DNA from: Dictyoglomus turgidum DSM 6724
Lineage (GTDB): Bacteria > Dictyoglomota > Dictyoglomia > Dictyoglomales > Dictyoglomaceae
DNA length: 64,000 nucleotides
Direction: 5' to 3'
NCBI RefSeq assembly: GCF_000021645.1
Contig: NC_011661.1
Span: forward strand, 1,148,723 to 1,212,722
Below, piece by piece: positions 41,177-56,558 of this stretch (position 1 is its first letter; every line of letters starts with the position of its first letter). A program made the position numbers and the translations under genes. Below the pieces are notes generated by a model that saw nothing but the letters and a program-made list of their open reading frames with translations, had not been told where the DNA came from and searched no databases.

Positions 41177-41177
41177 C

Positions 41178-42380
41178 TTGCCTTCTTATAGATATGTAGC
41201 AAAAGATCTCCAAGGGAAAATATATAAAGGTATATTAGAAGCTTCTTCTGAAAGAGAAGTAAGAAAACTTTTAAAGGCAAGAAAATTATATGTAGTTTCT
41301 ATAAAAAAAGAAACAGGACTTTGGAAAACCCTCACTTATAAGAAAAAAGTTACCCTTCCTGAATTAGTACTTTTTACTTCTCAATTTGCCACTCTCCTTA
41401 GATCTGGGATTATCTTAACTGAGTGTTTATCAACCCTTGCATCTCAAACTGATAATGCCTACTTTAAAGATGTACTCCTTGATGTGAGAAAGAATGTAGA
41501 CGCTGGGTTGAGCCTTTCTGAAGCCCTATCTAAATATCCTGATGTATTCCCAAAAATATTTATAAGCCTTGTGAGAACAGGAGAGGTTACAGGAAGCCTT
41601 GATTTAATGTTGGATAGACTTTCCAAATATTTTGATTCCCAACATGAGCTTAGAGAGAAAATAAAATCTGCAACTACCTATCCCACCATTGTTATAATTG
41701 CAGCCATAGTGGTGGTAATCTTTATGTTGACTTTTGTGGTCCCAACCTTCCAAAGAATTTATGGAAGAACCAATGTTCCTCTTCCTTTTCCTACAAGAAT
41801 TACCATTTTTCTTGGCAATTTTGTAAAAAATAATATCTTGATTATATTAGTCCTTTTAGCTCTTCTTATTGCGGGAGCAAGACAAAGTTTAAGAAACAAA
41901 AAAATAAAAAGATGGTGGGATGAAAATAAGTTGAAAATCCCTAAGATAGGAAAATTATGGAGACAAGTGCTTCTTACAAGATTTTCTGGTACCTTTTATG
42001 TCCTTCTCACAGGAGGTATTTTGATAACCCAATCTTTGGAAATATTAGAGGATGTAATAGGAAATCTATATTTTTCAGAACATTTAAGAAAAATACTCTC
42101 GGGAGTCCTCGAGGGAAGAAACCTATCGGATATGATGGACGAAGAAGTTTTTACTCCTCTCTTAAAACAGATGGTAGTAATAGGGGAGAGAAGTGGTAGA
42201 CTTGATACCATGTTAGAAGAATATACAAAATTTGCAGAAAGAGAAATAGATATAGCTACAAAAAGACTTACCGCTATGATTGAGCCTGCCTTGACCATAT
42301 TCTTGGGGGTTGTGGTATTCTTTATTGCCATCTCCATGTATCTTCCCATGTTCAATATGGTAAGACTCTTTAGAAGATAA
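41178..42380 (+). CDS. pilC: Type IV pilus / type II secretion platform protein (PilC/GspF)
   Basis: A 400-residue inner-membrane platform protein with two GspF domains. The first begins LVLFTSQFATLLRSGI with RTGEVTGSLD, and the second LLTRFSGTFYVLLTGGI with GERSGRLD. Three membrane segments follow the usual layout (about 166-186, 215-232 and 370-390). The N-terminal SYRYVAKDLQGKIYKGILEA is characteristic. The start is TTG 41178, one base after the pilB stop. Confidence 0.95.
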   Translation: MPSYRYVAKDLQGKIYKGILEASSEREVRKLLKARKLYVVSIKKETGLWKTLTYKKKVTLPELVLFTSQFATLLRSGIILTECLSTLASQTDNAYFKDVLLDVRKNVDAGLSLSEALSKYPDVFPKIFISLVRTGEVTGSLDLMLDRLSKYFDSQHELREKIKSATTYPTIVIIAAIVVVIFMLTFVVPTFQRIYGRTNVPLPFPTRITIFLGNFVKNNILIILVLLALLIAGARQSLRNKKIKRWWDENKLKIPKIGKLWRQVLLTRFSGTFYVLLTGGILITQSLEILEDVIGNLYFSEHLRKILSGVLEGRNLSDMMDEEVFTPLLKQMVVIGERSGRLDTMLEEYTKFAEREIDIATKRLTAMIEPALTIFLGVVVFFIAISMYLPMFNMVRLFRR

Positions 42381-42381
42381 A

Positions 42382-42409
42382 TTGAAAGCTATTAAAAATG
42401 TGTTATAAT
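42382..42409 (+). promoter_or_regulatory. Promoter of the major pilin gene
   Basis: TTGAAA (42382-42387) and a perfect TATAAT (42404-42409), spacing 16, in the 76-base gap after pilC. The leader then carries AAAGGAGGTGA (42440-42450), a near-perfect anti-SD match, so both transcription and translation look strong. Confidence 0.75.
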
Positions 42410-42456
42410 AAAAAAAATTTTAAAAATATAATAAGTACGAAAGGAGGTGAATAATT

Positions 42457-42846
42457 TTGAAGAACAGTAAAGGTTTCTCCCTTTTAGAACTCTTAGTAGT
42501 AATTGCAATTTTAGGAATTCTCGTAGCTATTGCTCTACCAAGATATTTTGATGCAGTAGCAGACGCAAAGAAAGCAGCTCAAAAATCTAACGTAGCAATT
42601 ATAAGAACAAGCCTTGAATATTATAGAAACAAAAATAATAAATATCCACAATTAACAGAATTCAATTCATTTATATCAAGCCAAACCTATTTTGCAGAAC
42701 CTCTTGTATGTCCATATAACAACAAAACTTATTCAGTAGTTGATCTTACAGCAACTTCTACATACTGGGGAACATCAGGTAATGAACATTATCTAGGATA
42801 TACAAGCACAGATAACTCATATACTTTAGTCTATACTGCTCCTTAA
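42457..42846 (+). CDS. Type IV major pilin / major pseudopilin
   Basis: A 129-residue prepilin with the class III leader MKNSKG/FSLLELLVVIAILGILVAIALP. Cleavage after Gly6 would leave N-terminal Phe and Glu5. After the helix (to about residue 55) a short globular domain ends in CPYNNKTYS...WGTSGNEHYLGYTSTDNSYTLVY. The size resembles GspG/TppA-type pseudopilins. A dedicated promoter, strong SD and immediate terminator mark it as the abundant subunit. The start is TTG 42457. Confidence 0.93.
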   Translation: MKNSKGFSLLELLVVIAILGILVAIALPRYFDAVADAKKAAQKSNVAIIRTSLEYYRNKNNKYPQLTEFNSFISSQTYFAEPLVCPYNNKTYSVVDLTATSTYWGTSGNEHYLGYTSTDNSYTLVYTAP

Positions 42847-42854
42847 AAAACTAC

Positions 42855-42882
42855 AACCCGGGGAAACTCCCCGGGTTTTTAT
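42855..42882 (+). terminator. Terminator after the major pilin
   Basis: AACCCGGGG (42855-42863) pairs with CCCCGGGTT (42869-42877) over a 5-base loop, with a TTTTTATT tail. A strong GC stem isolates the pilin mRNA from the minor-pilin genes downstream. Confidence 0.9.
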
Positions 42883-42894
42883 TAAATTTAGTAA

Positions 42895-43356
42895 ATGAAG
42901 ATTTTCTCAATCTTTTCCCTTAGAAGATACAAGAGAGGTATAATTTATGTTATACTTATCAGTGTTCTTCTTTTTTCGTTATCCATGCTTTTTCACATCT
43001 TCTATTGGCTAAGGGTAAACACTTTTATTTTATCCCATGAAGTTATTATAAATTCCAAATATGCTTTGGAATTATCTATAACTAAAGGAGAAAGAATAAT
43101 ATATTCCTTTGAATATTCACCTAAACTAAATACTATACTTTTTTATTGGATTTATGGAGAAAAAAGTAAAAAAGTATATCTTCAACCTCAGCTTTTACCT
43201 TCGGAAATAAAGGGGATAAGTCCTACAAATACTTATACTTTTTATTTTGACAATGGGAATTTATATCCTGAAGGAGAGATTCTTTTTTCTACGTATTTTT
43301 ATAAAAAAGGAGTAAAGTTTTATAAAAACGGAAGAGTTGTTTTTGTGGACAAATGA
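42895..43356 (+). CDS. Unrecognised membrane-anchored protein in the pilus locus
   Basis: A 153-residue protein I do not recognise. A basic N-terminus (RRYKRG) is followed by one hydrophobic segment (about residues 16-38) and then a Tyr/Phe/Lys-rich, probably all-beta, exported domain with FDNGNLYPEGEILFS and VKFYKNGRVVFVDK. The RG/IIYVIL junction resembles a prepilin cleavage site without Glu5, but this is weak. Only 12 bases separate it from the pilin terminator, so its promoter is unclear; read-through is possible. Position suggests a pilus-related role. Confidence 0.6.
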   Translation: MKIFSIFSLRRYKRGIIYVILISVLLFSLSMLFHIFYWLRVNTFILSHEVIINSKYALELSITKGERIIYSFEYSPKLNTILFYWIYGEKSKKVYLQPQLLPSEIKGISPTNTYTFYFDNGNLYPEGEILFSTYFYKKGVKFYKNGRVVFVDK

Positions 43357-43398
43357 TTTCTCTTGTGTAATATTTATTTTTTTATTAAAATTAAAAAT

Positions 43399-43848
43399 AT
43401 GAAAAGGGGTTTTAGCTTCATTGAGGTTATTGTAATAGTTAGCATTCTTGCTATTCTGCTTGGAATAGCTCTTATATCCTTTAGATCTTCGCCTGACAAA
43501 AAACTGATTTTGGAGAACATAGTAAACCAATTTAAAGAAGATATTAGATTCGTAAGACAAAGGGCAATTATAAATAAAACTACTTGGACTCTATCTCTAA
43601 TACCTTCTCCCACCTATACCACTTATACTTCTTATACTTTTTTAGATGATAAAAATAAAACGGTCTTAAGAACTCTAACAAATCTTGATCAAGTAAAATC
43701 TACAGCAACTCTTTTTTCCTTTGACAAAGATGGAATTTTTACAGCGGATGCTTTGGAAACTTCTGCTACTTTAACTTTTCAAATTGAAACCTATTCTGCC
43801 ACAATAAGGATAAACCCTATGGGCTATATTGAGGTTACAGGATTATGA
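43399..43848 (+). CDS. Minor pseudopilin, FimT/GspH type
   Basis: About 149 residues. The leader MKRG/FSFIEVIVIVSILAILLGIALI gives Glu5 after cleavage. KLILENIVNQFKEDIRFVRQRAI, just after the helix, is the typical GspH/FimT feature. The C-terminus INPMGYIEVTG matches the family's last strands. Start 43399 gives a normal short leader; an in-frame TTG 43363 would add 12 residues. It begins an H-V-W-X-like run of minor pilins. Confidence 0.85.
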   Translation: MKRGFSFIEVIVIVSILAILLGIALISFRSSPDKKLILENIVNQFKEDIRFVRQRAIINKTTWTLSLIPSPTYTTYTSYTFLDDKNKTVLRTLTNLDQVKSTATLFSFDKDGIFTADALETSATLTFQIETYSATIRINPMGYIEVTGL

Positions 43849-44231
43849 GGAAAGGTTTAACCTTTTTAGAGGTTCTTATTGCAGTACTTCTTTTAGGTAT
43901 TATTATGTCGTCAGTAGGTGTTGCAATCTCTTACATATTAAGAGCTGATGAGTATGAAAACATGATGAATATCTGTTTATATCTTACGGAAAAGAAATTA
44001 GAAGAATATAGAAAAGCAGTTCTTGCCAATTGGAACATTTCTTTTACTTACTCAGGAAACTTTGCAAATATTGGATATACTGATTTTTTTTACAGTCTAA
44101 CGGTATTTAATACTACCTATTCTTTAAAACAAATATTTTTACAAGTATGGAAAGAGGAAAACAATAATAATAAATTAGATGATTTTGAGCCAGAGACTAT
44201 AATTATTACTTATATTTCAAGAAGGAATTAG
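43845..44231 (+). CDS. Minor pseudopilin, PilV/GspI type
   Basis: A 128-residue prepilin with leader MRKG/LTFLEVLIAVLLLGIIMSSV, so Glu5 is retained. The short globular part (YENMMNICLYLTEKKLEEY..) fits GspI/PilV. It overlaps the previous gene by 4 bases (ATGA) and is followed after one base by the lamin-tail pseudopilin. Confidence 0.84.
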   Translation: MRKGLTFLEVLIAVLLLGIIMSSVGVAISYILRADEYENMMNICLYLTEKKLEEYRKAVLANWNISFTYSGNFANIGYTDFFYSLTVFNTTYSLKQIFLQVWKEENNNNKLDDFEPETIIITYISRRN

Positions 44232-44232
44232 T

Positions 44233-45825
44233 ATGAAAAAGGGATTAACTTTTATTGAGATTTTAATAACCATACTTATATTAGGGCTTATAGCCATCTT
44301 GCTGGTAAATATTTTTTTTAATACTAACGGGTTGTTCTCACAAAAGTTGCAAGAAAGAGAGTCAATAAGTAATCTTCAAATCATTATAGATAAACTTACA
44401 AGGGATATAAGACAAGCAAAAGAAGTTTTAGATATAGGTTCTTCTACTCAAACTCTGGGTTACGTAGTTTTATCTTTTCCCTCAGGAGATCAAAGTACTT
44501 ATTCTTATACTTATTACAACGGAAAGTATTATTTTACTGTTGATGGAGAAATTCTTGCAGGGCCTATAAAAGAAATAATATTTACAGGACTTGATGATAA
44601 CTTGACATATACCATGTTAACTTCCTCTATAAGAACCCTCTCCATAAGTGTTACTATGGACGATGGAAGGTATATGAGTACTATGGTGGCTTTGAGACCT
44701 CAAATAGTTCCTCAAATTACAGGAATATTCATCTCCGAGATCATGTATTATCCTGCTCTAAGAGATAGACAAGGAAATAATGTAAATGAGAACCTAATGG
44801 AGTTTATAGTAATTAACAATGCAACTAATTCTCCGCTAAATCTTTTTAATTGGAAGATTAATAACCATGCAATATCTAACACTAGAAGTGGTACTTATAC
44901 GGTACCAGCCTATGGTTGCGCTATTATAGGGGTTTCAGGCTCAAACTTATCCACTCATTATTTTGTTCCCAAGAATTATATTATCCTTGAAGTAGCTGAT
45001 GCATATTTAGGTCAGGGGAACAACCCCCTAAACAATAATAGTGATACATTAGTACTTCAAGATAGTAATAATGTAACTATAGATAAATTAACTTATAGTA
45101 GTAGCTGGGGAGGACAACCTCAAGGAAATAGATATTACTCTTTGGTAAGAAAAAGCATACAAAATCCATCTCAGGATCCATCTAATTGGATAAGTAGTAT
45201 CTTTAAGAATTACTCTGTTCAAAATATTGATGTATATTGCCTTGTTCCTCCCGTTTTAATAAACGAAATAATGTATTATCCAGCTCCTTATGATAAAAAT
45301 CGAAGATCTAGAAATGAAAGAGATATGGAATTTATAGAAATATACAACGCCTCAAATCAGACTATTAATATTCGAAACTGGCGAATAAACGGCAATACAT
45401 TATCTAACCTTGTTTCTGGAAACTGGGATCTTTCTCCAGGAAGTTATGCAATAATAGGAGGAAGTTGGTCTAGATTAAATAATTATTATAATTTACCGGC
45501 AGGTACTACTTACATAAAAGTGAATAACAGGGGGCTTGGTGCAGGTGGAATAGAGCTTTCTGATAGTGGAGCAACTATAACCTTGTCCGATGCTAATAAC
45601 TTGGTTGTAGATCAGGTAAGTTATTCCTATACTTGGGGAGGTTCTCCTTCAAGTTCTGGAAATTATAGGAATTATTATTCTCTTGAAAGGGAAAAGTGGG
45701 ATGCATCTCCTAATGATCCTTCTAATTGGGGAAGTAGTAGCAATTTAAATTATTCTGTTTTTATTAATCCTTTAACTTATTATGTATATTGCACTCCGGG
45801 AGGAAAGAATTCCAATTCACCATGA
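44233..45825 (+). CDS. PilW/GspJ-type pseudopilin with two lamin-tail domains
   Basis: A 530-residue chimera. The N-terminus MKKG/LTFIEILITILILGLIAIL is a prepilin leader with Glu5, followed by a GspJ-like head to about residue 160. Then come two homologous beta domains, at about 164-330 and 341-528. Each opens with EIMYYPA and continues MEFI.I.NA....NL.NW.IN, a small-residue turn, IIG, D.L.L.D.NN..ID, and W. The second ends in CTPGGKNSNSP, like the TPG-x-N end of bacterial lamin-tail domains (LTD). GspJ proteins are usually about 200 residues, so the C-terminal 370 are an added module. The function is unknown; surface display at the pseudopilus tip is likely. Confidence 0.85.
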   Translation: MKKGLTFIEILITILILGLIAILLVNIFFNTNGLFSQKLQERESISNLQIIIDKLTRDIRQAKEVLDIGSSTQTLGYVVLSFPSGDQSTYSYTYYNGKYYFTVDGEILAGPIKEIIFTGLDDNLTYTMLTSSIRTLSISVTMDDGRYMSTMVALRPQIVPQITGIFISEIMYYPALRDRQGNNVNENLMEFIVINNATNSPLNLFNWKINNHAISNTRSGTYTVPAYGCAIIGVSGSNLSTHYFVPKNYIILEVADAYLGQGNNPLNNNSDTLVLQDSNNVTIDKLTYSSSWGGQPQGNRYYSLVRKSIQNPSQDPSNWISSIFKNYSVQNIDVYCLVPPVLINEIMYYPAPYDKNRRSRNERDMEFIEIYNASNQTINIRNWRINGNTLSNLVSGNWDLSPGSYAIIGGSWSRLNNYYNLPAGTTYIKVNNRGLGAGGIELSDSGATITLSDANNLVVDQVSYSYTWGGSPSSSGNYRNYYSLEREKWDASPNDPSNWGSSSNLNYSVFINPLTYYVYCTPGGKNSNSP

Positions 45826-46256
45826 ATAAAGGCCAAATTCTTATTACAGTTTTATTAATTATTGCCATGTTGAGTCTTATCTTCTCAGGACTTATCATCT
45901 TCTGGGAAGGTAATATATCTAAGGTCTCCGCCCAGATTGCGGAAAAGCAAGCTCTCTATTTGGCAGAAGGTATGGCTGAGATGGCTATTTATAGTTTAAT
46001 CTGGTTTACTGGTATTCCTACCTATACCACTTTTGGTCCTATAACTTTTTCCTATACTAATTTTTACGGTATTGCAAAATCTGATTTTACTTATAGTCCT
46101 ACAGAGAGCTCCTTTATAATAACTTCTAATGCAATTGTTACTGTTATATATACTGGACAAACTTATACCTATTATAGGTCCTTAAGATTAGAAGGGATAA
46201 GAATTGGAACTTCGGTTCCTTATTCTCTTACTATAATAAACTGGGTGGAGGAGTAA
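45822..46256 (+). CDS. Tip-like minor prepilin, PilX/GspK type, no Glu5
   Basis: About 144 residues with leader MNKG/QILITVLLIIAMLSLIFSGLI. After cleavage the first residue is Gln and position 5 is Thr, so the conserved Glu5 is missing, as in GspK tip subunits. AEKQALYLAEGMAEMAIYSL matches the PilX helix (QA..LAE...E.A). Start 45822 gives an ATGA overlap with the lamin-tail gene; an in-frame start at 45789 gives a poor leader. It is short for a PilX. Confidence 0.78.
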   Translation: MNKGQILITVLLIIAMLSLIFSGLIIFWEGNISKVSAQIAEKQALYLAEGMAEMAIYSLIWFTGIPTYTTFGPITFSYTNFYGIAKSDFTYSPTESSFIITSNAIVTVIYTGQTYTYYRSLRLEGIRIGTSVPYSLTIINWVEE

Positions 46257-46257
46257 T

Positions 46258-47646
46258 ATGATTGGAATTCAATGGCTTAATGGAAAATTAAGGATTGCGA
46301 GGATTTCTAAAAAAGGAAAAAAAGTAGAGCTGAGAGATTATATTGAAGTAGAAATTCCTACGGGAGATTTTTGGAATAGAGGATTAGAAGAAGTAAATTT
46401 AGTTAAAGAGAGAATTGAGAAGGTCTTTAGGGAAAACAAAATAAAAGACAAAGAAATTGTTATGCTTTTTGAAAGCAAAGATATATCTCTAAGGACCTCA
46501 GAATACCCTTATATGTCTATAAAAGAGCTTGAAATGGCAATTCTTGATGATCTTGAAGAGTATCAAGCCTTTGATGAAAATTATAGTCTGTTTACCTTTT
46601 CCATGCTTGATCAGGATAAAAGTAAGATAAGAACTACTGTAGCCACAATTCCTAAGGTAATAGTTAATACTTGGGAGAGCATCTTTAAGAATTTAGGATG
46701 TAAGCTTGTTTCTTTTGAGCCATCTTTTGTCTCAGGGACAAGGTATATTCTTTGGTCGGGTAAAAATAAGTATCCCAATGGAATTATATTTATAGGTAAT
46801 GAGACCACAGATTTAGTTTTTATAAAGGAAAAAAAGATTAATTCTATTATAAACTTAAGTGTGGGAATTAATGATTTCTATAACTTAGATGAACTATCCT
46901 TTGATACTACCTTTTTAAGCTGGCAAGAAGAGTTGATTACTTATTTAAACAGTGCTTTTTATGAACTTGGAGATAAAAATATAGTAATATTTGGAGAAGA
47001 TGAAAGATATTTTAAGGTTGCAGAGAATTTTGTAAAAAATCTATCCTTAGATTACAAAGTAGATATCATAGAAAATCTCAATATTTCCCTTTTGGGAACA
47101 GCATTGTATGACGTAAATATACTAAGGATCAATTTTATAAAAGAGAGGATTCTTATAGATAGAGAATTAATCATAAGATCCCTTATTTCCTTTCTTCTTG
47201 CTCTTTCTTTAATCTTTCCTATAAATTTCTATTTTGATTTAAAAATTAGAGATTTGGATAGGAAAATAAACTATCTACAAAGCGAAATTCTCAAATACAA
47301 TGATCAAATTTCTAATTTGAGGAAAGAAGTTGACAATCAAAATGCAATGGTACAAATACTAGAAAAATGGCTTGAAGAAAGATCTGCAGTATCTCTTCCT
47401 TTTATCTTTCTTTCCGACTTAAGATATTTTATCCCTAAAAATGTATGGCTTACAGCTCTTGATATTGGAATTGATAAAAAATTAATTATAGAGGGATACA
47501 GTCTTGATACCGAAGGAGTTGCGGATTTTTTGCTTGCATTGTCTCGTTATGAGAGGATTAAAAGTATTAAATTAGAAAGCGCTATTTTAGAAATTATGGA
47601 AAACAAGGAAGTACAAAAATTTAGGGTGGTGGGGTATATAAAATGA
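46258..47646 (+). CDS. PilM-PilN fusion (GspL-like platform protein)
   Basis: A 462-residue protein joining two normally separate parts. Residues 1-300 look like an actin-fold PilM (IGIQWLNGKLRIARI, EYPYMSIKELEMAI, VSFEPSF, GIIFIGNETTDLVFI). One membrane segment (about 305-325) and a coiled coil (328-365) follow, then a PilN-like periplasmic domain with FIPKNVWLTALDIG and the ferredoxin-like strand region. GspL of type II secretion has the same topology. PilO and PilP follow with overlap or near contact, so the M-N-O-P alignment complex is complete in three genes. Confidence 0.85.
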   Translation: MIGIQWLNGKLRIARISKKGKKVELRDYIEVEIPTGDFWNRGLEEVNLVKERIEKVFRENKIKDKEIVMLFESKDISLRTSEYPYMSIKELEMAILDDLEEYQAFDENYSLFTFSMLDQDKSKIRTTVATIPKVIVNTWESIFKNLGCKLVSFEPSFVSGTRYILWSGKNKYPNGIIFIGNETTDLVFIKEKKINSIINLSVGINDFYNLDELSFDTTFLSWQEELITYLNSAFYELGDKNIVIFGEDERYFKVAENFVKNLSLDYKVDIIENLNISLLGTALYDVNILRINFIKERILIDRELIIRSLISFLLALSLIFPINFYFDLKIRDLDRKINYLQSEILKYNDQISNLRKEVDNQNAMVQILEKWLEERSAVSLPFIFLSDLRYFIPKNVWLTALDIGIDKKLIIEGYSLDTEGVADFLLALSRYERIKSIKLESAILEIMENKEVQKFRVVGYIK

Positions 47647-48185
47647 GAAACAAAATACATCTATACATTTTTACCATCGTTTTACTTCTTGGCTTGATTT
47701 TATTTGTAATGCCAAAATATTCTCAGGTAAGTAAGAAAGAAAGGGAGTATAACACAAAAAGATTAGAGTTAGAAAATGCCATAGAAAGCATAGCCACATT
47801 AAGGGATACCTTAAATAAAATAGAAGAAAGAAGAAGGGTTATTTTTGCGGAGAGAAATCTTCTTTTTTTAAGAGAAGAGGAAATTCCCATATTTTTTAAA
47901 GATCTGAGCATAGTGATAAAAAGAAACAAAATAACGAGCTTTGAGATAAAACCTTCTGATTTTGAGGAGATACAAGATCTTCCTGAAAATTTCCCTTTGA
48001 AGCTCAAAAAATTGCCTATTAACTTAAAGCTCATAGGAAATTACAATCAATTTATAGACTTCTTTAGGGATCTTTATGACGAGAGTTATCCTATAAGCTT
48101 TAATCAAGTTCAACTCATGAGTAGCGAGAACCTGTTAACTCTTAATGTAATTTTTGACGTATATGTCCTTGAAGGAGGGGAATAA
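47643..48185 (+). CDS. PilO-like alignment complex protein
   Basis: A 180-residue protein with one N-terminal membrane segment (about 6-24), a coiled coil (about 28-75) and a small C-terminal alpha/beta domain (LPINLKLIGNYNQFIDFFRDLYDESYPI). This topology and position after PilN identify PilO by context; sequence motifs are weak in this family. It overlaps the PilM-N gene by 4 bases. Confidence 0.8.
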   Translation: MRNKIHLYIFTIVLLLGLILFVMPKYSQVSKKEREYNTKRLELENAIESIATLRDTLNKIEERRRVIFAERNLLFLREEEIPIFFKDLSIVIKRNKITSFEIKPSDFEEIQDLPENFPLKLKKLPINLKLIGNYNQFIDFFRDLYDESYPISFNQVQLMSSENLLTLNVIFDVYVLEGGE

Positions 48186-48186
48186 T

Positions 48187-48726
48187 ATGAAGAAGATAGA
48201 CTATTTATTAAGTACTTTTCTAATTGCCTCCTTAGGATTAAATACTTATCTTGTAGTTAATGTTGACAGACTCTTAAGGGAGGATTTTGAAGAGATAGTA
48301 TTAGCAAAAAAAATATCCTTTGTTAAACAAGATGCAGAAAAAATAGAAGATATTAAGGCAATAAAAACTATGGATGGCATTAGAAAAAATTATAGGTTAT
48401 CTTTAGGAAGAGATGATCCTTTTAAACCACTAATAAAAGTGGAAAAAGAAAAGATTAGTATCAAGAATTCTGTATCCATTGATAAGACTGTTCCAAAGGT
48501 TGTATCTGAACTTGAAAAGCCACCCTTTATCTTAAGAGGAATACTAAAGGGAGAGTATAGCGAAGTAGCAATTTTAGAAAGAGTTGGAAGGGAAGAGAGT
48601 TTTGTGGTTGAAAAAGGTAAAGAAATAGATGGATATCATATAATTAAGCTTGATATTAACAATAACACTATTACTCTACGCAAAAATAATAAAGACTACA
48701 TCCTGAAATTAGTAGGAGATAGGTAA
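48187..48726 (+). CDS. PilP/GspC-like protein
   Basis: About 179 residues with one membrane segment (6-24), a linker (about 25-115), and a C-terminal HR-like beta domain. LRGILKGEYSEVAILERVG...SFVVEKGKEIDGYHIIKLDINNNTITLRK matches the PilP/GspC homology region. Start 48187 has SD GGAGGGG. In other systems this domain contacts the secretin, so a secretin gene is expected elsewhere in the genome. Its last 18 bases overlap the 3' end of the convergent gene on the other strand. Confidence 0.78.
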   Translation: MKKIDYLLSTFLIASLGLNTYLVVNVDRLLREDFEEIVLAKKISFVKQDAEKIEDIKAIKTMDGIRKNYRLSLGRDDPFKPLIKVEKEKISIKNSVSIDKTVPKVVSELEKPPFILRGILKGEYSEVAILERVGREESFVVEKGKEIDGYHIIKLDINNNTITLRKNNKDYILKLVGDR

Positions 48727-49491
48727 TTCCTCTAAGAATACCGTTCCATTGAAGGTAACGTCTCTTGTTCTTACTATATTTTGATACCTTCTTTGAATGC
48801 TTAAAGAAACTTGCACCTGTTGAATATTTGTATTTCTTGAAGGAATAGTATCGGTATAAGTAGTTAAAGAGTATGTATTGTTTGACGGATCCAGAGTACT
48901 ATAATCAATTACATAATAGCTTACAGTAAAGCCGTTGGGTACTATGTAATCCGCAATTATTTTTGGAAATTCTCCAGAAGTAAAGGTTATATTTGTAGGA
49001 TAATTAGTGATTTTTCCTATCTTTAGAGTCTTAGATGTGCCTGTAAAAGCGACAGTAATGGTATAAGTAGCGTATTGAGGGCTCCAATTTATAAATTTTC
49101 TATAATATAAAAGCATTCTTGCATTTGGAAGAGCACTATCTGTAGGAACTCTTGGTCTTGTTAAGTAGACATTTAAAAAGTAACCTCCTGAGGAGGCAGG
49201 GGTGATTGTAAGAAGTTTATCATAACCAATTCTTTCATTTATATTAAGATTAAAATTTGAACTATCGGAAAGCCTTATATTTACATTTGGAGGATATATA
49301 AAAATACTCTTTAGCACAGAATCAAGGATGTTGGTTTTTGCTGAATTAAGATACTCGTATATTTCTCTATCAAGTTTTTGAGAAATAAAATCCCTCTGTA
49401 CTGACATCCATATGGCGAAGGTTAATGCAAGTATAATAAATAGTATGAAGAGAGAAATGATTAATTCAACTAAGCTCATTCCTTTTTTCAT
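48709..49491 (-). CDS. Minor pseudopilin, PilW/GspJ type
   Basis: A 260-residue prepilin with leader MKKG/MSLVELIISLFILFIILALTFAIWMSV, so Glu5 is kept and the +1 residue is Met. A long helix (to about 60) precedes a beta-rich, Tyr/Thr-rich head. Size and position after a V-like gene suggest a PilW/GspJ role. It is the last gene of the - strand block and ends inside the convergent pilP-like gene. Confidence 0.78.
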   Translation of the reverse strand: MKKGMSLVELIISLFILFIILALTFAIWMSVQRDFISQKLDREIYEYLNSAKTNILDSVLKSIFIYPPNVNIRLSDSSNFNLNINERIGYDKLLTITPASSGGYFLNVYLTRPRVPTDSALPNARMLLYYRKFINWSPQYATYTITVAFTGTSKTLKIGKITNYPTNITFTSGEFPKIIADYIVPNGFTVSYYVIDYSTLDPSNNTYSLTTYTDTIPSRNTNIQQVQVSLSIQRRYQNIVRTRDVTFNGTVFLEELPISY

Positions 49492-50045
49492 GGTCTTGTA
49501 ACTACCCCCGCAAGTTCTGCCAAAGGATTTTCATACCTTTTTGGCGGTGCACCACTTCCAGGCTTATGTATACTGGTATTAATTTCTCCATTTGGCTTCG
49601 CATAGTACACCCTCACCGTAATTCTCTTCATTATGGCAATAGAAGATCCCGGACTTTGATAATCTTTGACAAGAAATTGTACTACATATTTAGGTGCTCC
49701 ATTTACCTTAGGAATGTTATAAAAATCCGTATATAGTCTGTCATTTTCAGGTGGATCTGCAGGAATTGCAGGTCTTATGGTAGGTATTGCAGGGATTGCT
49801 CTTGTACTATTTACTTCATTTTCTACTAATGCATCAAAGTTTGCTTCGCTACTTCCCGCCCAAATTTTTGTTGTCTCAATAATATTTTTGGCAATATCCT
49901 GAGCTTCAGCTCTATCTCTTGCTCTTTTGTTTAAGGCATAGCTCCAAATAGTAGCCCCCGTTAAACTAAGTACTAATATCATCAAGATAATGGTGAATAC
50001 CACTACTCCCACTAAAGATTGTCCTTTTTCCTTATCTATTCTCAC
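49488..50045 (-). CDS. Minor prepilin without Glu5, PilV-like position
   Basis: About 185 residues. The leader MRIDKEKG/QSLVGVVVFTIILMILVLSLTG places Gln at +1 and Gly at +5, so Glu5 is absent. The following helix (RARDRAEAQDIAKNIIETTK) resembles PilV. The middle has a run of Ala/Ile/Pro (AIPAIPTIRPAIPADPP), perhaps an extended linker. The start is GTG 50045, set by SD GGGGGGTGATG; TTG 50060 lies inside that SD. It overlaps the next gene by 4 bases. Confidence 0.72.
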   Translation of the reverse strand: MRIDKEKGQSLVGVVVFTIILMILVLSLTGATIWSYALNKRARDRAEAQDIAKNIIETTKIWAGSSEANFDALVENEVNSTRAIPAIPTIRPAIPADPPENDRLYTDFYNIPKVNGAPKYVVQFLVKDYQSPGSSIAIMKRITVRVYYAKPNGEINTSIHKPGSGAPPKRYENPLAELAGVVTRP

Positions 50046-50064
50046 ACCATCACCCCCCAAGATT

Positions 50065-50313
50065 TTATTCTACAAACTCCACAAAGGGAGGATAAGGACC
50101 CTTTTCAGGTGTGTTATTAATATTTAAAGTGTTGGTTGACTTAACTGTGCTTTCAATCTCCAAATTTATATCCTTTTCCACTCTTTCCTTCATCTCCTTT
50201 GGTGATGTATATTCATTGAAATTCCTAATTGAAAATATTTTAAAGATCAATATGACTATGAAAATAGCTATACTTATAATTAACAAAACTTTGTCAATAT
50301 TTTTTATTTCCAT
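50065..50313 (-). CDS. Small single-pass membrane protein in the pilin block
   Basis: An 82-residue protein I do not recognise. A basic start (MEIKNIDK) is followed by a strongly hydrophobic segment (about 9-27) and a polar, charged tail ending in PEKGPYPPFVEFVE. There is no prepilin cleavage site. SD GGAGGG precedes ATG 50313, which overlaps the end of the previous gene by 10 bases. Coupling to the pilin genes suggests an assembly or anchoring role, but nothing in the sequence defines it. Confidence 0.6.
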   Translation of the reverse strand: MEIKNIDKVLLIISIAIFIVILIFKIFSIRNFNEYTSPKEMKERVEKDINLEIESTVKSTNTLNINNTPEKGPYPPFVEFVE

Positions 50314-52010
50314 ATTTCCCTCCAAGAGTCAATGAAAATCCATCTTTGGGTTTGAGGATTGCCTTCTTGTATAGTTCTTCCTGTGGTTGGGAAATAGGGT
50401 GGAGCATAGCCTGATCTCATTCTATAATCGTACCAAAAATCTCTACCATAACCACTTGTTGGAATTGGGTTTCCATTTCTGTCTGTGGAAAAGGTACCAA
50501 AAGCTCCATAGTTTTTAGAGATAATACCTCCTAAAAGATGTACATCCCCAGCTGGGGGTCTCGTGCTATAATTTGCTACCTGTACCACACCGTTTGGAGC
50601 CATAAGTACTGCATGAATATTTGGATCTCTCAATACATTTCCACTACTATCTTTTGGATCAATAATTATATTGCCAGTTTCTGCAAGAAGTCCGAGCACA
50701 TTTACAGCATCTGGATTGTTTCTTGGATCATCCTCATAGGTCAAATGATTTGTAATGGTAATGTTACTTTTAGCAACCACTGTAATCCTTTGATCTTTCT
50801 GTACCATACCTTTTATACTTGTGACATTTCCATTAACATAAATAACTCCATTAGGGGCTTTATTTATCTCTATAATTTGATTTCCTATTTTTACATAGGT
50901 TTTGTTATTTTTGACATCAACTGTAAATACATAAGTACTCGATCCCTGGGTTATAGTATAAACTGATCTACCCAAGGAATCCTTTCCAAATTCTATACTG
51001 GTATCACCCTGTATATATATTCCACCGCCATTGGCTATAGTTATGGTATATATTCCGTTAGGAGGGGCAGTGTTTCCAGGAGGCAGTCCAAGATAGTTTC
51101 TTATTACCGAATAAGTGGGACTGTACGTAGGAAAATTATCATTTGGAAAGTAGGAAAGGGCAGCATAAAGCTGAGTATAAGCTACAGTAGGAAGATTGAT
51201 TGCAGGAGCTCCCCTTGTAAATCCCTTCGCAAAATAAGGGATATCTCTTGGAGGATTGCTATCTGCTGCAAGTTGTCTTGGATTTCCACCATTATAGAAG
51301 TATGCGGTTGTAGCTACCGATGAAACTTCATCAAAAAATTGTGGAGTATAAGCAAAAGCAAATTGTCCATTAGTATGAACAGGTCCATAGAACTTTGTTC
51401 TATCAGTAAACCAGACCCTTGAACCATCGCTCATTAAGTGTCTATCGGTAAACAATGCAAACCTAGCAAAATTTTCTTTTCTTAGCACTCCTTCGATTTT
51501 TCCCGTGACGGTAACTTGAAGGGTTATGGTAGGATTAAAATTTACTTTTTGTCCGAGACAGGTTATAGTATATACATAAGTATAGCTAACTTCGTCGGTT
51601 GTTCCACCTCTTGTTATTGCAGTGTAGTTTGCTAAACTAAAAGAGTAATCTAAAATGGAGTAAACAGTATTAGGATCTACCTGGGAAGTATTTGTATAAA
51701 TATAATTGATAGTATTAATAAAATTGGTATTATTTTTTGATAAAAGGGAGGATAAAAAATTCTCATCTATGTCTGTTAATTTTCTTCTTGTTAATTGGTC
51801 TTTTAAGTAGTATCTTGCAGTGGTGAGAACGGTTTTAATTCCTACTTGAGTAGCGTATAGTACTTGATCTCTTGCTTGACTTCTACGGGTAAAGAAGGAC
51901 TGTTCAATGGGGAAATTTACCACAAGAGCAATCAAAGCAGTTATAAAAATGGCAAAGGTTATAGCTGTTATCAGGCTAATATCACCCTTTTCCCCTTTTT
52001 TGATTCTCAT
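50304..52010 (-). CDS. Large prepilin-like protein with DUF4900-type region
   Basis: A 568-residue protein. The N-terminus MRIKKGEKG/DISLITAITFAIFITALIALVV is prepilin-like but has Asp at +1 and no Glu5. A helix with SQARDQVLYATQVGIKTVLTTAR, PilX-like, follows. Around residues 199-220 WFTDRTKFYGPVHTNGQFAF resembles the DUF4900 pattern (GPVHTNG), which I recall from Deinococcus/Thermus-type envelope proteins. Later parts are beta-rich, with GIYIQGDTSIEFG, GVIYVNGNVTSIKG and a Tyr/Pro-rich end. It is probably a tip-type subunit with a large exported head. The DUF assignment is from memory. Confidence 0.7.
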   Translation of the reverse strand: MRIKKGEKGDISLITAITFAIFITALIALVVNFPIEQSFFTRRSQARDQVLYATQVGIKTVLTTARYYLKDQLTRRKLTDIDENFLSSLLSKNNTNFINTINYIYTNTSQVDPNTVYSILDYSFSLANYTAITRGGTTDEVSYTYVYTITCLGQKVNFNPTITLQVTVTGKIEGVLRKENFARFALFTDRHLMSDGSRVWFTDRTKFYGPVHTNGQFAFAYTPQFFDEVSSVATTAYFYNGGNPRQLAADSNPPRDIPYFAKGFTRGAPAINLPTVAYTQLYAALSYFPNDNFPTYSPTYSVIRNYLGLPPGNTAPPNGIYTITIANGGGIYIQGDTSIEFGKDSLGRSVYTITQGSSTYVFTVDVKNNKTYVKIGNQIIEINKAPNGVIYVNGNVTSIKGMVQKDQRITVVAKSNITITNHLTYEDDPRNNPDAVNVLGLLAETGNIIIDPKDSSGNVLRDPNIHAVLMAPNGVVQVANYSTRPPAGDVHLLGGIISKNYGAFGTFSTDRNGNPIPTSGYGRDFWYDYRMRSGYAPPYFPTTGRTIQEGNPQTQRWIFIDSWREIWK

Positions 52011-52053
52011 TTGTTAACACTCCTTATTAAAAATTAAGATTTTTCTAAAATAA

Positions 52054-52083
52054 ATTATACACCTAAAAACGTAAAAATAAACA
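52054..52083 (-). promoter_or_regulatory. Possible internal promoter of the - strand pilin block
   Basis: On the - strand a perfect TATAAT occupies 52059-52054, with a weak -35 TGTTTA at 52083-52078 (18-base spacing). It lies in the only sizeable gap (136 bases) of the block and would drive the 568-residue protein and the three genes after it. SD AAGGAGTG precedes that gene. Confidence 0.5.
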
Positions 52084-52146
52084 CAGTTATTTCCAAACTA
52101 ATAGGGTTTGAAGTTTAGATTTGGTTTTTTAAGTTTTAAAATATAT

Positions 52147-52722
52147 CTATAGAGATATTTTACCTGTTGCCATTATTTTAATTGAATAGGATAAATTTAT
52201 ACTCATACTCTTGCCTGTTATCACCACCCCATTATTGTCTATATTGCTATCTGAATACAAAGTTCTACCACTTAATAAATTAACAATTTTAGCTTGTCCT
52301 CTAATTTCATTAGCATTTCCTCCAGCTTTAAACACAACCCCTAAATAATTTTTGCCGTTAATACTCACAGTAGGAGAAATAAATTGTAACTTTATATTCT
52401 TAGGCAGTTTTACAATTTTAAAATAACGAGAATTAGCATCTCCTGGTACAAAATGTATATTGTAAATTTGAGGATTTTGTAACATTCCATATTGCATGAA
52501 CTCAATATAATACTCATCCTCTCCTATGTAGGCAATAAGATCTTGCTGCTGAACAATTGCCTTTTCTCTTGCAATCCTTAAATCTTGAGCAAGTTGCCAC
52601 ATTATATTTTCCAAAGTCTTTCTCTCATAGAAATTTCTTAGAGTTGGAATACTCGCTATTGCAATAATGGCTAAAACTGCAATGACAATATATAACTCTA
52701 TTAGACTGAACCCTTTTCTCAT
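52147..52722 (-). CDS. Minor pseudopilin, FimT/GspH type
   Basis: A 191-residue prepilin with leader MRKG/FSLIELYIVIAVLAIIAIASIPTL (Glu5 present). NIMWQLAQDLRIAREKAIVQQQ is the typical GspH/FimT stretch. The C-terminal part contains LGVVFKAGGNANEIRGQAKI and SLSYSIKIMATGKISL, close to the GspH end. It follows the 639-residue NG-repeat protein by 10 bases. Confidence 0.83.
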   Translation of the reverse strand: MRKGFSLIELYIVIAVLAIIAIASIPTLRNFYERKTLENIMWQLAQDLRIAREKAIVQQQDLIAYIGEDEYYIEFMQYGMLQNPQIYNIHFVPGDANSRYFKIVKLPKNIKLQFISPTVSINGKNYLGVVFKAGGNANEIRGQAKIVNLLSGRTLYSDSNIDNNGVVITGKSMSINLSYSIKIMATGKISL

Positions 52723-52732
52723 AGCTCGGTCC

Positions 52733-54652
52733 TTACATCTTTATATTTATAATAGGATTTAGAGAGCTTACATAATTCTCAGAAACAGTCTTAGTTATAA
52801 TCTCTGCCCATCTGTTTCTTAATACTTTTCCTGAAGAGGAAAAGGCTTCAAAAGAAACATTAACATACTTCAATGGCTCTCCCATCAATGGTGGTGGAGA
52901 AACAGTATTATTAGCGAGTCTGTTATCATAAACAATATTTTGGCTCCCGTTGAAGGTAACTCCTTGAGTAGTTCCATAACCACCTCCAATAACAGCTCCA
53001 AATATGGTAGAGCTTCCATTAAAGGTAATGTTACTGTATGGAGCATACATTAAACCGTGATATTCTACGCTTCCATTAACTACTATTCCTCCATTTGTTC
53101 CTTGCCCTAAGGAAACAAGAGCTGAAATACTTTTATCGTCAAGATATTTAATTCCTTGTGCTCCATTGAATTGAATCTTCTTGGTTGATATTATGGTTCC
53201 TGAGCCTTTTATCTTAACTATTCCGTTAAAAATTACATCTCCATTTACCCAAATAACTCCAGGAGAATTAAACTCAAGGGTACAATCACCATTAAAAGTG
53301 AGATCTCCATTAACATATAGAGCTACAGGAGGATTAGATGAGGTGGAGTTTATTTTTACATTTCCAGTAGCATTTAAGGTCAAGCTACCGTCTATGTAAT
53401 AAGGAACGTTTGTTCCATCATATTTTCTTCCATTTACTACAAGGGTATAGTTACTATAAGTAGATAGTGATCCTTTTTGGATTGCACCGTAAGAACTTGC
53501 TATCTGTTTTATTTGCTCCTCTAAGGGAAGGGGAATTTCTGGTAATGATTCCTTTTGGTTGTAAATTATTTGTCCTTGAATATATGGTGCTCCAGTTATA
53601 GTGATAGGATTTACCTCTTGAGGCTGTGAAGTTATCAGATTCCCATATATTCTTGGAGCTCCATTTAAAACTATTTTTCCATCTACATATAAATCTCCAT
53701 TAGTATATGTAGATGTATAGGTTCCATTTGGAGATATGTTGCCTGAGTATATATCTAAGGCTCCATTTATGGTTAAGCCATTTCCAGACCAAACTGCATG
53801 AGTAAAAGCAGGAGGTGTTATAGTGTTAGTATAATCCTTAATAATCTGGGCTAAGATGCTTCCAATTTTGGCAGAAGAATAGATAGATCTAATTCTATTT
53901 GGACTACTTAAATAGTAGGCTGTAATTCTTATCTGAAACTCGCCATTACTTCCATTATCATCATTGTATTGCACATTTGTTCTTATTACTATCCATCGAG
54001 AATTTATTTTAAAATTATAATCAAGGTCAGAAAGCCTATAAACGTTGCTTGAATAAAACTCCTGCAGCAATGTACTCCCATTTATTTCAGATAAGTTAGG
54101 AACTAAATAATATATCCCATTACTATTTAATCCAACTACTTTATACAGCCTTTTATCAGATAAATCGTATAAATATGTTCCATAATTGTCTAAAATATCC
54201 CATAATGATCCAGGAGTTTTATTTGCTTGAATATAATTACTATAACTTGCTCCTATATCCTGATAGGGATTTAAGCTGTTGTTTAAATTAACTACTTCGC
54301 CACCATTAATTTTTGAGAGCAAAAAGCTCAAAACGTAATATGCTGATGCTTTTTTAATCATGTTTTCATCAGTTAATTTTGTAGATATGATACTCAGGTT
54401 TTTATAAATATCTGAATTAACATTACGGGCAGATAGAGATAAAAATTTAGGGAAATCACTTATAGTAAGGAGTGTGTTATCAAGCATTAAATCACAAGCG
54501 ACAAGGAGATTATCTGACATTTTTTCTTCACTAAAAATGGTATCCTTGGTTAGGGCTGTATTAAGAAGAGTTATTGAGATTCCAAGAAATATTAAACCCA
54601 AAACCAATACTAACACAATAGTAGAGTATCCTTTTTCTGTAATTTTAATCAT
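52733..54652 (-). CDS. Tip-like prepilin with NG-rich beta-solenoid-like region
   Basis: A 639-residue protein. The N-terminus MIKITEKG/YSTIVLVLVLGLIFLGISITLL is prepilin-like, with Val at +5 and no Glu5. From about residue 280 to 575 there are many short repeats ending in N-G, such as LTINGALDIYSG, LYVDGKIVLNGA, LYVNGDLTFNGD, VIWVNGDVIFNGI, ITFNGSSTIFG and VTFNGSQNIVY. This periodicity suggests a stacked beta structure like polymer-forming (bactofilin/CcmA-like) or DUF7305-type domains; the fold is inferred. It probably forms a large surface head on a pseudopilus tip. Confidence 0.75.
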   Translation of the reverse strand: MIKITEKGYSTIVLVLVLGLIFLGISITLLNTALTKDTIFSEEKMSDNLLVACDLMLDNTLLTISDFPKFLSLSARNVNSDIYKNLSIISTKLTDENMIKKASAYYVLSFLLSKINGGEVVNLNNSLNPYQDIGASYSNYIQANKTPGSLWDILDNYGTYLYDLSDKRLYKVVGLNSNGIYYLVPNLSEINGSTLLQEFYSSNVYRLSDLDYNFKINSRWIVIRTNVQYNDDNGSNGEFQIRITAYYLSSPNRIRSIYSSAKIGSILAQIIKDYTNTITPPAFTHAVWSGNGLTINGALDIYSGNISPNGTYTSTYTNGDLYVDGKIVLNGAPRIYGNLITSQPQEVNPITITGAPYIQGQIIYNQKESLPEIPLPLEEQIKQIASSYGAIQKGSLSTYSNYTLVVNGRKYDGTNVPYYIDGSLTLNATGNVKINSTSSNPPVALYVNGDLTFNGDCTLEFNSPGVIWVNGDVIFNGIVKIKGSGTIISTKKIQFNGAQGIKYLDDKSISALVSLGQGTNGGIVVNGSVEYHGLMYAPYSNITFNGSSTIFGAVIGGGYGTTQGVTFNGSQNIVYDNRLANNTVSPPPLMGEPLKYVNVSFEAFSSSGKVLRNRWAEIITKTVSENYVSSLNPIINIKM

Positions 54653-54683
54653 ATTAAACTCCCCCCAGTCAGAAAAGATTAAT

Positions 54684-55253
54684 TTACTGTCTTAAAGAGA
54701 TCAAAAAAATCCTGTACATATTTATTGTATTTCCGTAGGGAAGAAGAGACTCTGCGAAGATCTCCACCTCCACAACTTTTGGATCCCAATAAGGTCTTCT
54801 TATGATTATGTTTTTGAACACCTTATTAGTTAAAGGTTGACTGCTGATGACACTTTGATATGTAAATCCACCATCGGTAGATAGATTTAGACTATAAAGC
54901 ACCTCTCTCATTCCTTTAGAGTTAGGAGCTCCAAAAGAGTAGATTATTTTTCTGATCTGATTTTTATCATCTCTACTATTGAATTCAATTAATTTATTTT
55001 GACTAAAATCAGCGAAGTTATCAGAATATGTAGAATATGCCGGAAAGGTTATAGTATAAGCCTGTCTTAACTCATTGGACAATTGTTGAATAAAAATATT
55101 TATATCATCAAGAATTTCATCATATACTTGTTGAGATCGAGATATTTGAAAAGAGTAGAGAAGAGCACCAAAAATAAGGGAGAAGATAATCATAAATATG
55201 ATAATAACTATCAATGTTTCTATAAGAGTAAATCCCTTTTCTCCTTTCCTCAT
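54684..55253 (-). CDS. Minor pseudopilin, PilW/GspJ type
   Basis: A 189-residue prepilin with leader MRKGEKG/FTLIETLIVIIIFMIIFSLIFGALL and Glu5. IFIQQLSNELRQAYTITFP after the helix is the typical GspJ/PilW segment, and the length is normal for GspJ. It lies one base after the previous prepilin gene on the - strand. Confidence 0.83.
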   Translation of the reverse strand: MRKGEKGFTLIETLIVIIIFMIIFSLIFGALLYSFQISRSQQVYDEILDDINIFIQQLSNELRQAYTITFPAYSTYSDNFADFSQNKLIEFNSRDDKNQIRKIIYSFGAPNSKGMREVLYSLNLSTDGGFTYQSVISSQPLTNKVFKNIIIRRPYWDPKVVEVEIFAESLLPYGNTINMYRIFLISLRQ

Positions 55254-55254
55254 G

Positions 55255-56058
55255 TTATTCTCCCCAGGTCATTATTTGGCTTGATACCTCATAAGAATAT
55301 TCTCTATTCCCATAAACCCAAAAAACTTTCACAAGAACATCATAAAATTGCACATGGTCTGGCTCGTTGGGGTATCTTTTTCTTGCCACTATTCGGGTAA
55401 GAACCCTAAAACCCTCATAATTTGTTGTGTTCTTTAGTAAATTACTATCATTTGTGTAGTGAGGATCATAATCAAAGGAAGTAGGATCAGTTTTTCGTGT
55501 GTCATCTGTGTAGATCTTTGGAGTATAATTTTCTTTTGCCCTAAAAATATATTTTGGTATATTTTTTGAGTACTTAATTATGGGGAGTAAGTTGGTGCTT
55601 TTATCTCTATTATTATTAAGATTGGGATCAGAAACTCCATAGGGTACAAAACCTTGTAATACAGAGTAAAAAGCTTGAGGATTATTGTTATAAGTTTGGT
55701 AGGGAAGGCTAGGGCTAATATTAATACTTAAAGGATTTCCATTTATGTCTACCAATCCAGGATAATAATGAGAAGAGTCATTTCCTAAAGTATAACTGTT
55801 TCCATAGCTTAAGCCATATTTAGCATCTATAATAGATCCTTTTTCAGGATTGTTTTGACAAGTTATGTTTCTTGCCTTTATATACTCCATTGTATAAAAA
55901 GCTATGTTTTTAGCTATTTCTGAAAGTTCAGTCTTTTTAATTTTCTCTCCAGAGGAGACAAAAACTGGAAGAGAAAAACTCATAATGATAAGTAGTATGG
56001 TCATACTAACGAGAAGTTCTACTAAGGAAAAGCCTTTCAAATTTTTAAATAAGCTCAC
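55255..56058 (-). CDS. Minor pseudopilin, first gene of the - strand block
   Basis: A 267-residue prepilin with leader MSLFKNLKG/FSLVELLVSMTILLIIMSFSLPVFVSSGE, retaining Glu5. AKNIAFYTMEYIKARNI after the helix is PilV/GspI-like, but the protein is twice the usual length, with a Tyr/Asn/Pro-rich middle. SD GGAGGAAAG precedes the ATG. It starts the divergent transcript facing the ilv T-box leader. Confidence 0.8.
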   Translation of the reverse strand: MSLFKNLKGFSLVELLVSMTILLIIMSFSLPVFVSSGEKIKKTELSEIAKNIAFYTMEYIKARNITCQNNPEKGSIIDAKYGLSYGNSYTLGNDSSHYYPGLVDINGNPLSINISPSLPYQTYNNNPQAFYSVLQGFVPYGVSDPNLNNNRDKSTNLLPIIKYSKNIPKYIFRAKENYTPKIYTDDTRKTDPTSFDYDPHYTNDSNLLKNTTNYEGFRVLTRIVARKRYPNEPDHVQFYDVLVKVFWVYGNREYSYEVSSQIMTWGE

Positions 56059-56309: not shown

Positions 56310-56558
56310 TAAAAATCAATGGCGATGAAGAGGAGTAGTACGTAATTTCCCATATTTACAGAGAGCCAGCATAAGGTGAAAGCTGGTAATATGGGATTAC
56401 GGAACTCGCCTCGGAGCTGAGATCCTGAATGAGTAAAGTAGGGATCTCCGTATACCTGCGTTAAAGGTTAGAGTTGCCTTGAGTTCTTTAACTTGAGGCA
56501 AGAAAGGTGGTACCGTGGGAAAGCTTCTCACCCTTTATGGTTGAGAAGCTTTTATTTT
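56310..56558 (+). promoter_or_regulatory. T-box riboswitch with Leu (CUC) specifier before ilvB
   Basis: A tRNA-sensing leader that lets transcription continue when tRNA-Leu is uncharged. Stem I elements are GGCGATGAAGAGGAGTAGTA (56321-56340), AGAGAGCC and GGAACTCGCC, which places the CUC specifier at 56405-56407. The T-box proper is AAAGGTGGTACCG, with UGGU at 56508-56511 to pair with the tRNA acceptor end; its last U fits discriminator A. The terminator is AAGCTTCTCA (56521-56530) with TGAGAAGCTT (56542-56551) and a T-rich tail. An SD GAAGGGAGG follows before ilvB. Confidence 0.93.

Follow-up and report, generated by a model that had tools for sequence, protein, structure and literature searches.

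Several described systems come close to the pilin locus with which this work is concerned, a locus at positions 42457-56058 of a 64-kb stretch of DNA (the window) from the complete 1,855,560-bp genome of Dictyoglomus turgidum DSM 6724. In the type II secretion system (T2SS), the gsp operon follows the order E-F-G-H-I-J-K-L-M-C. The tapirins of Caldicellulosiruptor are found beside a type IV pilus locus and bind cellulose. In Myxococcus xanthus, three minor-pilin clusters are reported to operate with one machine, either cluster 1 or cluster 3 being enough by itself for pili to form (PMC7541494). In Thermus thermophilus, ComZ is described as a GspK-like pilin in which a beta-solenoid is inserted before the last strand; this DNA-binding protein is argued to stand at the tip (PMC6561018). 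There are thus precedents both for one machine served by multiple minor-pilin sets, in M. xanthus, and for tip pilins with a solenoid, in Thermus. What is new in D. turgidum is that lamin-tail domains are carried by a J-type pilin, that two solenoid sets lie beside one machine, and that the layout is fixed tail to tail. We propose that the minor-pilin sets of this locus act as alternative tip or priming complexes, in the manner of Myxococcus but with solenoid and lamin-tail heads; taken as a whole chain, this proposal has in our judgement about an even chance of being right.

The list of open reading frames (ORFs) of the window places a major pilin gene and eleven minor-prepilin-like genes in the locus, the latter in three sets. 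A sequence-only reading of the same DNA had described about eleven such genes in three sets, and all eleven are indeed open frames where it had placed them; two further genes of the locus, for a 153-aa and an 86-aa protein, had escaped it. We term the sets B (+ strand: H149, V, W-LTD, in which LTD stands for lamin-tail domain, and X144), C (- strand: X568, V190 and W260) and D (- strand: V267, W189, X639 and H191). A class III leader with Glu at +5 is present in 7 of the 11 genes, namely H (43399), V (43845) and W-LTD (44233) on the + strand, and V (55255), W (54684), H (52147) and W (48709) on the - strand; the four without Glu5 are X (45822), X639, X568 and V190. When all 64 kb were scanned for strict leaders, eight matches were obtained, corresponding to the major pilin and the seven Glu5 genes, all within 42457-56058, and zero matches in the other ~50 kb of the window. 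Genome-wide, PF07963 (cut-off 21.2) finds 17 sites at E<=10, 15 of them above cut-off, and 8 of the 17 fall in this locus. The typing of the genes as H, V, W and X draws real support from profile hidden Markov models (HMMs), but the scores lie nearly everywhere under the curated cut-offs: H149 alone passes (Pfam GspH, 23.9 bits against 21), and the roles of the others are based on sub-cut-off best matches and gene order.

As with clusters 1-3 of M. xanthus (FimU-PilV-PilW-PilX-PilY1), several complete minor-pilin sets are found in one genome. M. xanthus has a PilY1 adhesin in each set and a single type IVa pilus (T4aP) machine, whereas here the K/X and J pilins themselves contain the heads, and the genome has two machines, system B, encoded in the window, and system A, encoded elsewhere. 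No PilY1-like protein was recognised among the ORFs read.

The genes of system B run on the + strand from 39491 to 48726 in the order PilB, PilC, major pilin, a 153-aa protein, H, V/I, W/J, X/K, PilM-PilN, PilO and PilP, and they form one operon in the T2SS-like order E F G H I J K L M C. The operon begins with a PilB/GspE-type assembly ATPase that has an MshEN, cyclic-di-GMP-type N-terminal domain (39491..41176; T2SSE, E 6e-127; MshEN, 2.6e-19), followed by a PilC/GspF-type inner-membrane platform (41178..42380; best NCBIfam match GspF, 339.6 bits, below cut-off) and a GspG-like major pilin (42457..42846; N_methyl, 5e-10; best NCBIfam match gspG, 50.8 bits, below cut-off). Set B then comprises the H-type H149 (43399..43848; GspH, 6.4e-5, above cut-off), a V/I-type pilin recognised by its leader (43845..44231; ComGE, 0.001), a W/J-type pilin with two lamin-tail domains (44233..45825; LTD, 1.1e-24, in two stretches) and the K/X-type X144 (45822..46256; GspK, 8.4e-5, that is 22.2 bits against a cut-off of 130). 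The last three genes encode a fused PilM-PilN of GspL-like architecture (46258..47646; PilN, 2.5e-7, above cut-off; PilM_2, 0.003; pilM, 4.9e-7), a PilO/GspM-like protein (47643..48185; PilO, 0.0008, slightly under cut-off) and a PilP/GspC-like protein (48187..48726), which gave no HMM match and is assigned by its position and by an LGRxDPF motif that we take to be a PilP/GspC motif. Since the operon has a T2SS-like order and a fused PilM-PilN, the H-I-J-K genes of set B are the machine's own set; PilMN is given as the GspL orthologue in a review (PMC4471445). Between the major pilin and H149 lies the gene of a conserved 153-aa signal-anchored protein (42895..43356, +), which has no Pfam match and has orthologues in three other genomes of the phylum (G003, G004 and G001). 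Its C-terminal part looks GspH-like by eye, no prepilin cleavage site was seen in it, and some orthologues are without the cleavage glycine.

System B has the features of the type IV filament superfamily, that is an assembly ATPase, a platform and prepilins, with a prepilin peptidase available in the genome, and we describe it as a type IV filament system of T2SS-like gene order. Unlike the T2SS, it has lamin-tail domains on its J pilin. Its PilB reaches 580.9 bits with the TIGR pilB model, against a cut-off of 675.65, and 562.6 bits with gspE, likewise below cut-off. Neither a GspK (T2SSK) nor a GspL domain was found above cut-off in the window machine, and no GspD secretin of its own was found for system B, the only secretin of the genome sitting in the cluster of system A. 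PilT, a T4aP feature, is present in the genome, unlinked to the window machine. A classification as T2SS was rejected on the missing own secretin, the missing GspK and GspL domains and scores under the cut-offs, and one as T4aP by the PilB equivalog was rejected on its score under the cut-off; with most scores under the curated cut-offs and no secretin in the operon, we file system B as neither.

These same features bear on the reading in which system B makes a T2SS-like piston pseudopilus, and in which the extra sets are cargo-recognition tips, or secreted or anchored cargo, and not adhesive tips. The order E-F-G-H-I-J-K-L-M-C, the PilM-PilN fusion as in GspL, the best matches to GspF and GspG, the operon without PilT and the reported secretion of polysaccharide-degrading enzymes by the organism (PMC5167688) are all in keeping with it, but the window PilB scores higher with the PilB than with the GspE model (both below cut-off), among solved ATPases Thermus PilF comes closest, in part through an effect of length, the match of the L subunit is to pilM/PilN and not to GspL, and neither the T2SSK domain nor an own secretin was found. 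We consider this reading rather unlikely.

On the opposite strand, the genes follow the order V267-W189-X639-H191 (set D), then, after a gap of 136 bp, X568, an 86-aa gene, V190 and W260 (set C). Set D comprises the V/I-type V267 (55255..56058; ComGE, 3.8e-10), the W/J-type W189 (54684..55253; ComGF, 1.8e-10) and the H-type H191 (52147..52722; ComGD, 7e-9; gspH, 3e-7), all below cut-off, together with the K/X-type X639 (52733..54652; DUF7305, 4.9e-11), which has a beta-solenoid head. In set C, X568 (50304..52010; DUF4900, 1.3e-12) is a K/X-type pilin, a putative tip pilin, with a beta-solenoid head predicted to be ComZ-like; it is followed by an 86-aa protein with one transmembrane (TM) segment (50065..50325), which has an orthologue in G003, by the V/I-type V190 (49488..50060; PilV, 0.002, below cut-off), which has Q at +1 and no Glu5, its copies in the sister genus having GFSLIS, and by the W/J-type W260 (48709..49491; leader GMSLVE; N_methyl, 0.0008), whose typing is ambiguous (best match ComGE, 7e-4). 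The gap between the two sets holds a TGTATAAT box, seen by eye in both species of the genus, so that set C probably has its own promoter.

Each of the two large X proteins is a pilin of K/X type whose head, long and rod-shaped, is a predicted beta-solenoid. X568 matches DUF4900 (Pfam PF16241) with 48.3 bits against a cut-off of 29.4, and X639 matches DUF7305 (Pfam PF23981) with 43.3 bits against a cut-off of 27, while X400, the corresponding pilin of system A, reaches 17.9 bits with DUF7305 here and 26.7 in the sister-genus genome G004 (same cut-off). In the AlphaFold models, the solenoid regions are at 320-480 in X568 and at 420-500 in X639, with block means of up to ~83. The structure nearest to the X568 model in VIA-align was Thermus ComZ (6qvi), with Z 7.0, a root mean square deviation of 4.4 and 177 residues; the next row had 4.3, and the ordinary rows below ComZ had Z 3.5-4.3. 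A VIA-align Z below 8 may mean a common arrangement alone, according to the tool's own remark, and the ComZ match is favoured here by its margin over the next row and by the matching region (296-541 of the model on 278-511 of ComZ). X568 would resemble, as modelled, the tip formed by ComZ and PilA2 in Thermus, in which a K-type pilin with an inserted beta-solenoid has adjacent minor pilins, but here no sequence similarity to ComZ was detected, and two solenoid sets stand beside one machine, a third (X400) being elsewhere. The X639 model gave many beta-helices, with a tapirin domain (4wa0) at Z 10.5 and ComZ at Z 7.0, rank 50. The tapirin likeness, which comes from a low-confidence model, is a generic beta-helix match, no sequence match of X639 to tapirins was obtained, and we do not claim a relation. 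With Foldseek, neither model had a match at E<=0.001, and ComZ was 14th for X639 (E 0.41).

The three sets can be followed through the seven genomes of the phylum, among which G000 is that of the window, G003 is the second species of the genus, and G004, G005 and G006 belong to the sister genus. Set C lies tail to tail with system B in 5/5 genomes from two genera, and never with system A; the 3' ends of the PilP and W260 genes overlap by 18, 18, 11, 11 and 11 bp in the five genomes in which the junction is assembled, the first figure being that of the window. In the sister genus, system B and set C are both present and convergent, and set D is not beside set C. A protein search found X639 in 3/7 genomes, namely G000, G003 and, as a contig-end fragment, G002. 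DUF4900 is present in 5/7, the other two (G001 and G002) being incomplete drafts, and the system B contig of G001 ends inside J. A scan of genome contigs returned a single locus, on a contig of G006. Sets C and D appear from this distribution to have different histories, D being known from the genus of the window only; a lateral acquisition of set D was considered and rejected, its G+C content not being aberrant. In G004, an HEPN/MNT-like gene pair, recognised by eye, is inserted between PilC and the major pilin (L056:15710-16415, -).

All the genes of the locus are syntenic in G003, and the eleven keep their reading frame and amino-acid sequence. Between G000 and G003, the ratio of nonsynonymous to synonymous substitution rates (dN/dS) of the eleven genes is 0.036-0.140, as compared with 0.023-0.054 for ilvB, gatB, PilB and PilC and 0.25 for the 86-aa gene, values that are rough as dS is ~1 or more throughout, near saturation. 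This suggests purifying selection on all sets and does not support decay within the genus. The sequence-only reading had suggested different exported heads on the three sets, which holds good: J/W has a pair of lamin-tail domains and the two large X proteins have beta-solenoids, with all sets apparently under purifying selection. A reading of the minus-strand sets as paralogues that are silent or in decay could be argued from set C being broken in G004 and from the lack of a set D next to set C in G004, G005 and G006, but with the low dN/dS of every prepilin gene, and with set C frames intact in 4/5 genomes, we judge it very improbable.

System A is encoded in two places. At 901-907 kb of the genome are found PilB (871 aa), PilT, PilC, a sigma factor and three major pilins, and at 1045-1056 kb PilD, H159, V129, W184, X400, PilM, N, O, P and PilQ (1424 aa). 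Its PilB passes the pilB equivalog cut-off with 690.8 bits, and the PilD-H-V-W-X-PilM cluster is found in 6/7 genomes of the phylum (it was not read in G002, which is 72% complete). The sigma-factor-like gene, recognised by eye, is between PilC and the major pilins (L017:8670-9377, +), and PilQ (L018:13491-17765, +) shows before its secretin domain a block of ~150 residues that is repeated almost identically, a very rough observation by eye. Other pilin genes are scattered in the genome: an orphan second J-type pilin with two lamin-tail domains at 346.4-348.1 kb (L015:12403-14121, +), 43% identical to the J of the window; an orphan GspG-like pilin akin to the major pilin of the window at 340.6-341.1 kb (L015:6645-7070, -); and at 373.8 kb a GspG-like pilin that has an Ada metal-binding domain at its C-terminus (PF02805, 6.6e-12; L016:7844-8380, +). 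Lamin-tail matches occur in frames of similar size in G003 (88.7 kb) and G001. ComEA and ComEC are adjacent (L014:348-2262, +), which makes DNA uptake plausible in the organism.

The earlier reading had stated that the window holds no secretin, prepilin peptidase or PilT, and the genome-wide search agrees, as it finds one secretin (PilQ), one PilD (1045.7 kb) and two PilT-like genes (902.4 and 1464.4 kb), all outside. Diderm envelope genes are reported in D. turgidum (PMC5167688), and with such an envelope any surface filament needs a secretin, of which PilQ is the only one. The single PilD and the single PilQ must therefore be either shared by both machines or dispensed with.

The same reading had all sets sharing one machine, which is not supported, given this second complete machine with PilT and its own H-V-W-X. 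Set B is tied to system B by its operon and the X568 set by its tail-to-tail linkage, but the X639 set is genus-restricted. Another reading would make sets C and D alternative tips of a retractile system A, serving for instance DNA uptake or adhesion, and lying merely beside system B. System A does have PilT and PilQ, its X400 is a DUF7305-related solenoid K/X pilin (below cut-off) that aligns with X568 over 164 columns (82.6%), the genome encodes ComEA and ComEC, and DNA uptake is the role of ComZ in the account of PMC6561018; set C, on the other hand, is never found with system A, and we regard this reading as unlikely. A machine assignment of sets C and D by profile comparison was also tried and is not decisive, as the N-terminal helices dominate the scores.

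In the mechanism that we propose, each minor-pilin set would prime assembly and cap the filament. The J subunit of set B would present its two lamin-tail domains; set C (X568, V190 and W260), which is assigned to system B on its linkage, would be the counterpart of the K-I-J trimer that caps T2SS pseudopili, would present a ComZ-like solenoid, and would use system B, whose H it could borrow. Set D, as a full H-V-W-X (H-I-J-K) set, would present another solenoid, and it could serve either machine. One filament would in this way be furnished with different binding heads, the prepilins would be cut by the single PilD, and a filament that extends outside would pass through the one PilQ, whose gene lies with those of system A.

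Several points weigh against this mechanism. Most role assignments lie below curated cut-offs, and set D, or even set C, may serve the second machine. In the profile comparison, H191 scores 96.7 with the H of system B and 95.9 with that of system A, and W260 scores 95.5 with the W of system A and 90.1 with the J of system B. The AlphaFold models are poor, with a mean pLDDT (predicted local distance difference test) of 40.3 for X568 and 46.6 for X639, X639 resembles beta-helices in general and is without the W-x-E C-terminal end of the other K/X pilins, and searches with three profiles and one single protein gave no sequence match to ComZ or to a solved structure, so that homology to ComZ by sequence was rejected. 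Finally, in the broken set C of G004, the pilin part is absent from the N-terminus of X, and a single short frame takes in both the small gene and V (L056:7605-9246, +).

Some hints of regulation are found in the locus. A promoter-like site with a TG before the -10 and 11/12 consensus positions lies just upstream of the major pilin gene (42382..42409, +), the promoter scan as a whole giving 72 sites where 77.7 are expected by shuffling, so that it carries no weight by itself. A terminator-like hairpin (42855..42877, +; 10 pairs, 7 of them G-C), probably an attenuator, lies between the major pilin and the minor pilins. The terminator scan gave 15 sites against 10.8 +/- 4.0, and only this hairpin was used, because it recurs in other genomes: it is in the same place in 4/4 (those of the window, G003, G004 and G001), with differing stem sequences. 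With this hairpin 3' of its gene, the major pilin could be made in excess over the minor pilins. The terminator scan found no + strand terminator-like site between 46.3 and 53.4 kb, which makes read-through into set C possible. System B could be a filament with exchangeable caps, namely its own lamin-tail cap, two solenoid caps and the orphan lamin-tail J, in which, through the conserved tail-to-tail overlap, transcription running past the end of one operon would be antisense to the other, and caps would be expressed by turns in a manner resembling an excludon, a concept set out in PMC7154746; we think this decidedly unlikely. Beyond the locus, a T-box leader is found upstream of the ilvB operon, at 56316-56538 (+) of the window (Rfam RF00230, 150.5 bits).

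The head families occur beyond the phylum. DUF4900 was found in 27/290 genomes, and among the 16 loci read outside the phylum, which come from 15 of the 22 such genomes, at least one strict prepilin gene lies within 3 kb on the same strand in 8, and at least two in 5. Several members start with a TM helix and then a QALYxAxxG-type stretch, and end in PPxFPTT...W, like X568, while some weaker matches do not. DUF7305 was found in 32/290 genomes, with a strict prepilin gene nearby in 14/30 loci, including the locus of the window and its G003 orthologue, and several members end in SWxE. For both families, the loci read are part of those found; for DUF7305 as for the lamin-tail domain, length decided which frame was taken as the central one, and in some loci this differs from the frame that matched. 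Both DUF4900 and DUF7305 are likely, from these sequence comparisons, to be tip pilins of K/X type with solenoid heads. As for the lamin-tail domain, no strict leader was found in any frame of 30 loci (the best 30 of 153 matching genomes). This suggests that its fusion to a prepilin is rare, with the limits that some frames are cut by the ends of the loci and that a wrong frame was picked in some loci. In the literature available to us, the search found nothing joining Dictyoglomus with this locus and nothing on DUF4900; for the lamin-tail domain with pilin or prepilin, it returned an archaeal biofilm paper and type II secretion papers without mention of the lamin-tail. The word "pilus" does not occur in the main text of the D. 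turgidum genome paper (PMC5167688).

These comparisons give a likely role to two unnamed Pfam families, DUF4900 and DUF7305, that occur beyond the phylum. If the sets are alternative tips, the locus, in the small genome of a thermophile, would offer a compact system in which to ask how one filament machine picks its cap, and in what way caps with unrelated heads, lamin-tail and beta-solenoid, are built on the same pilin stalk.

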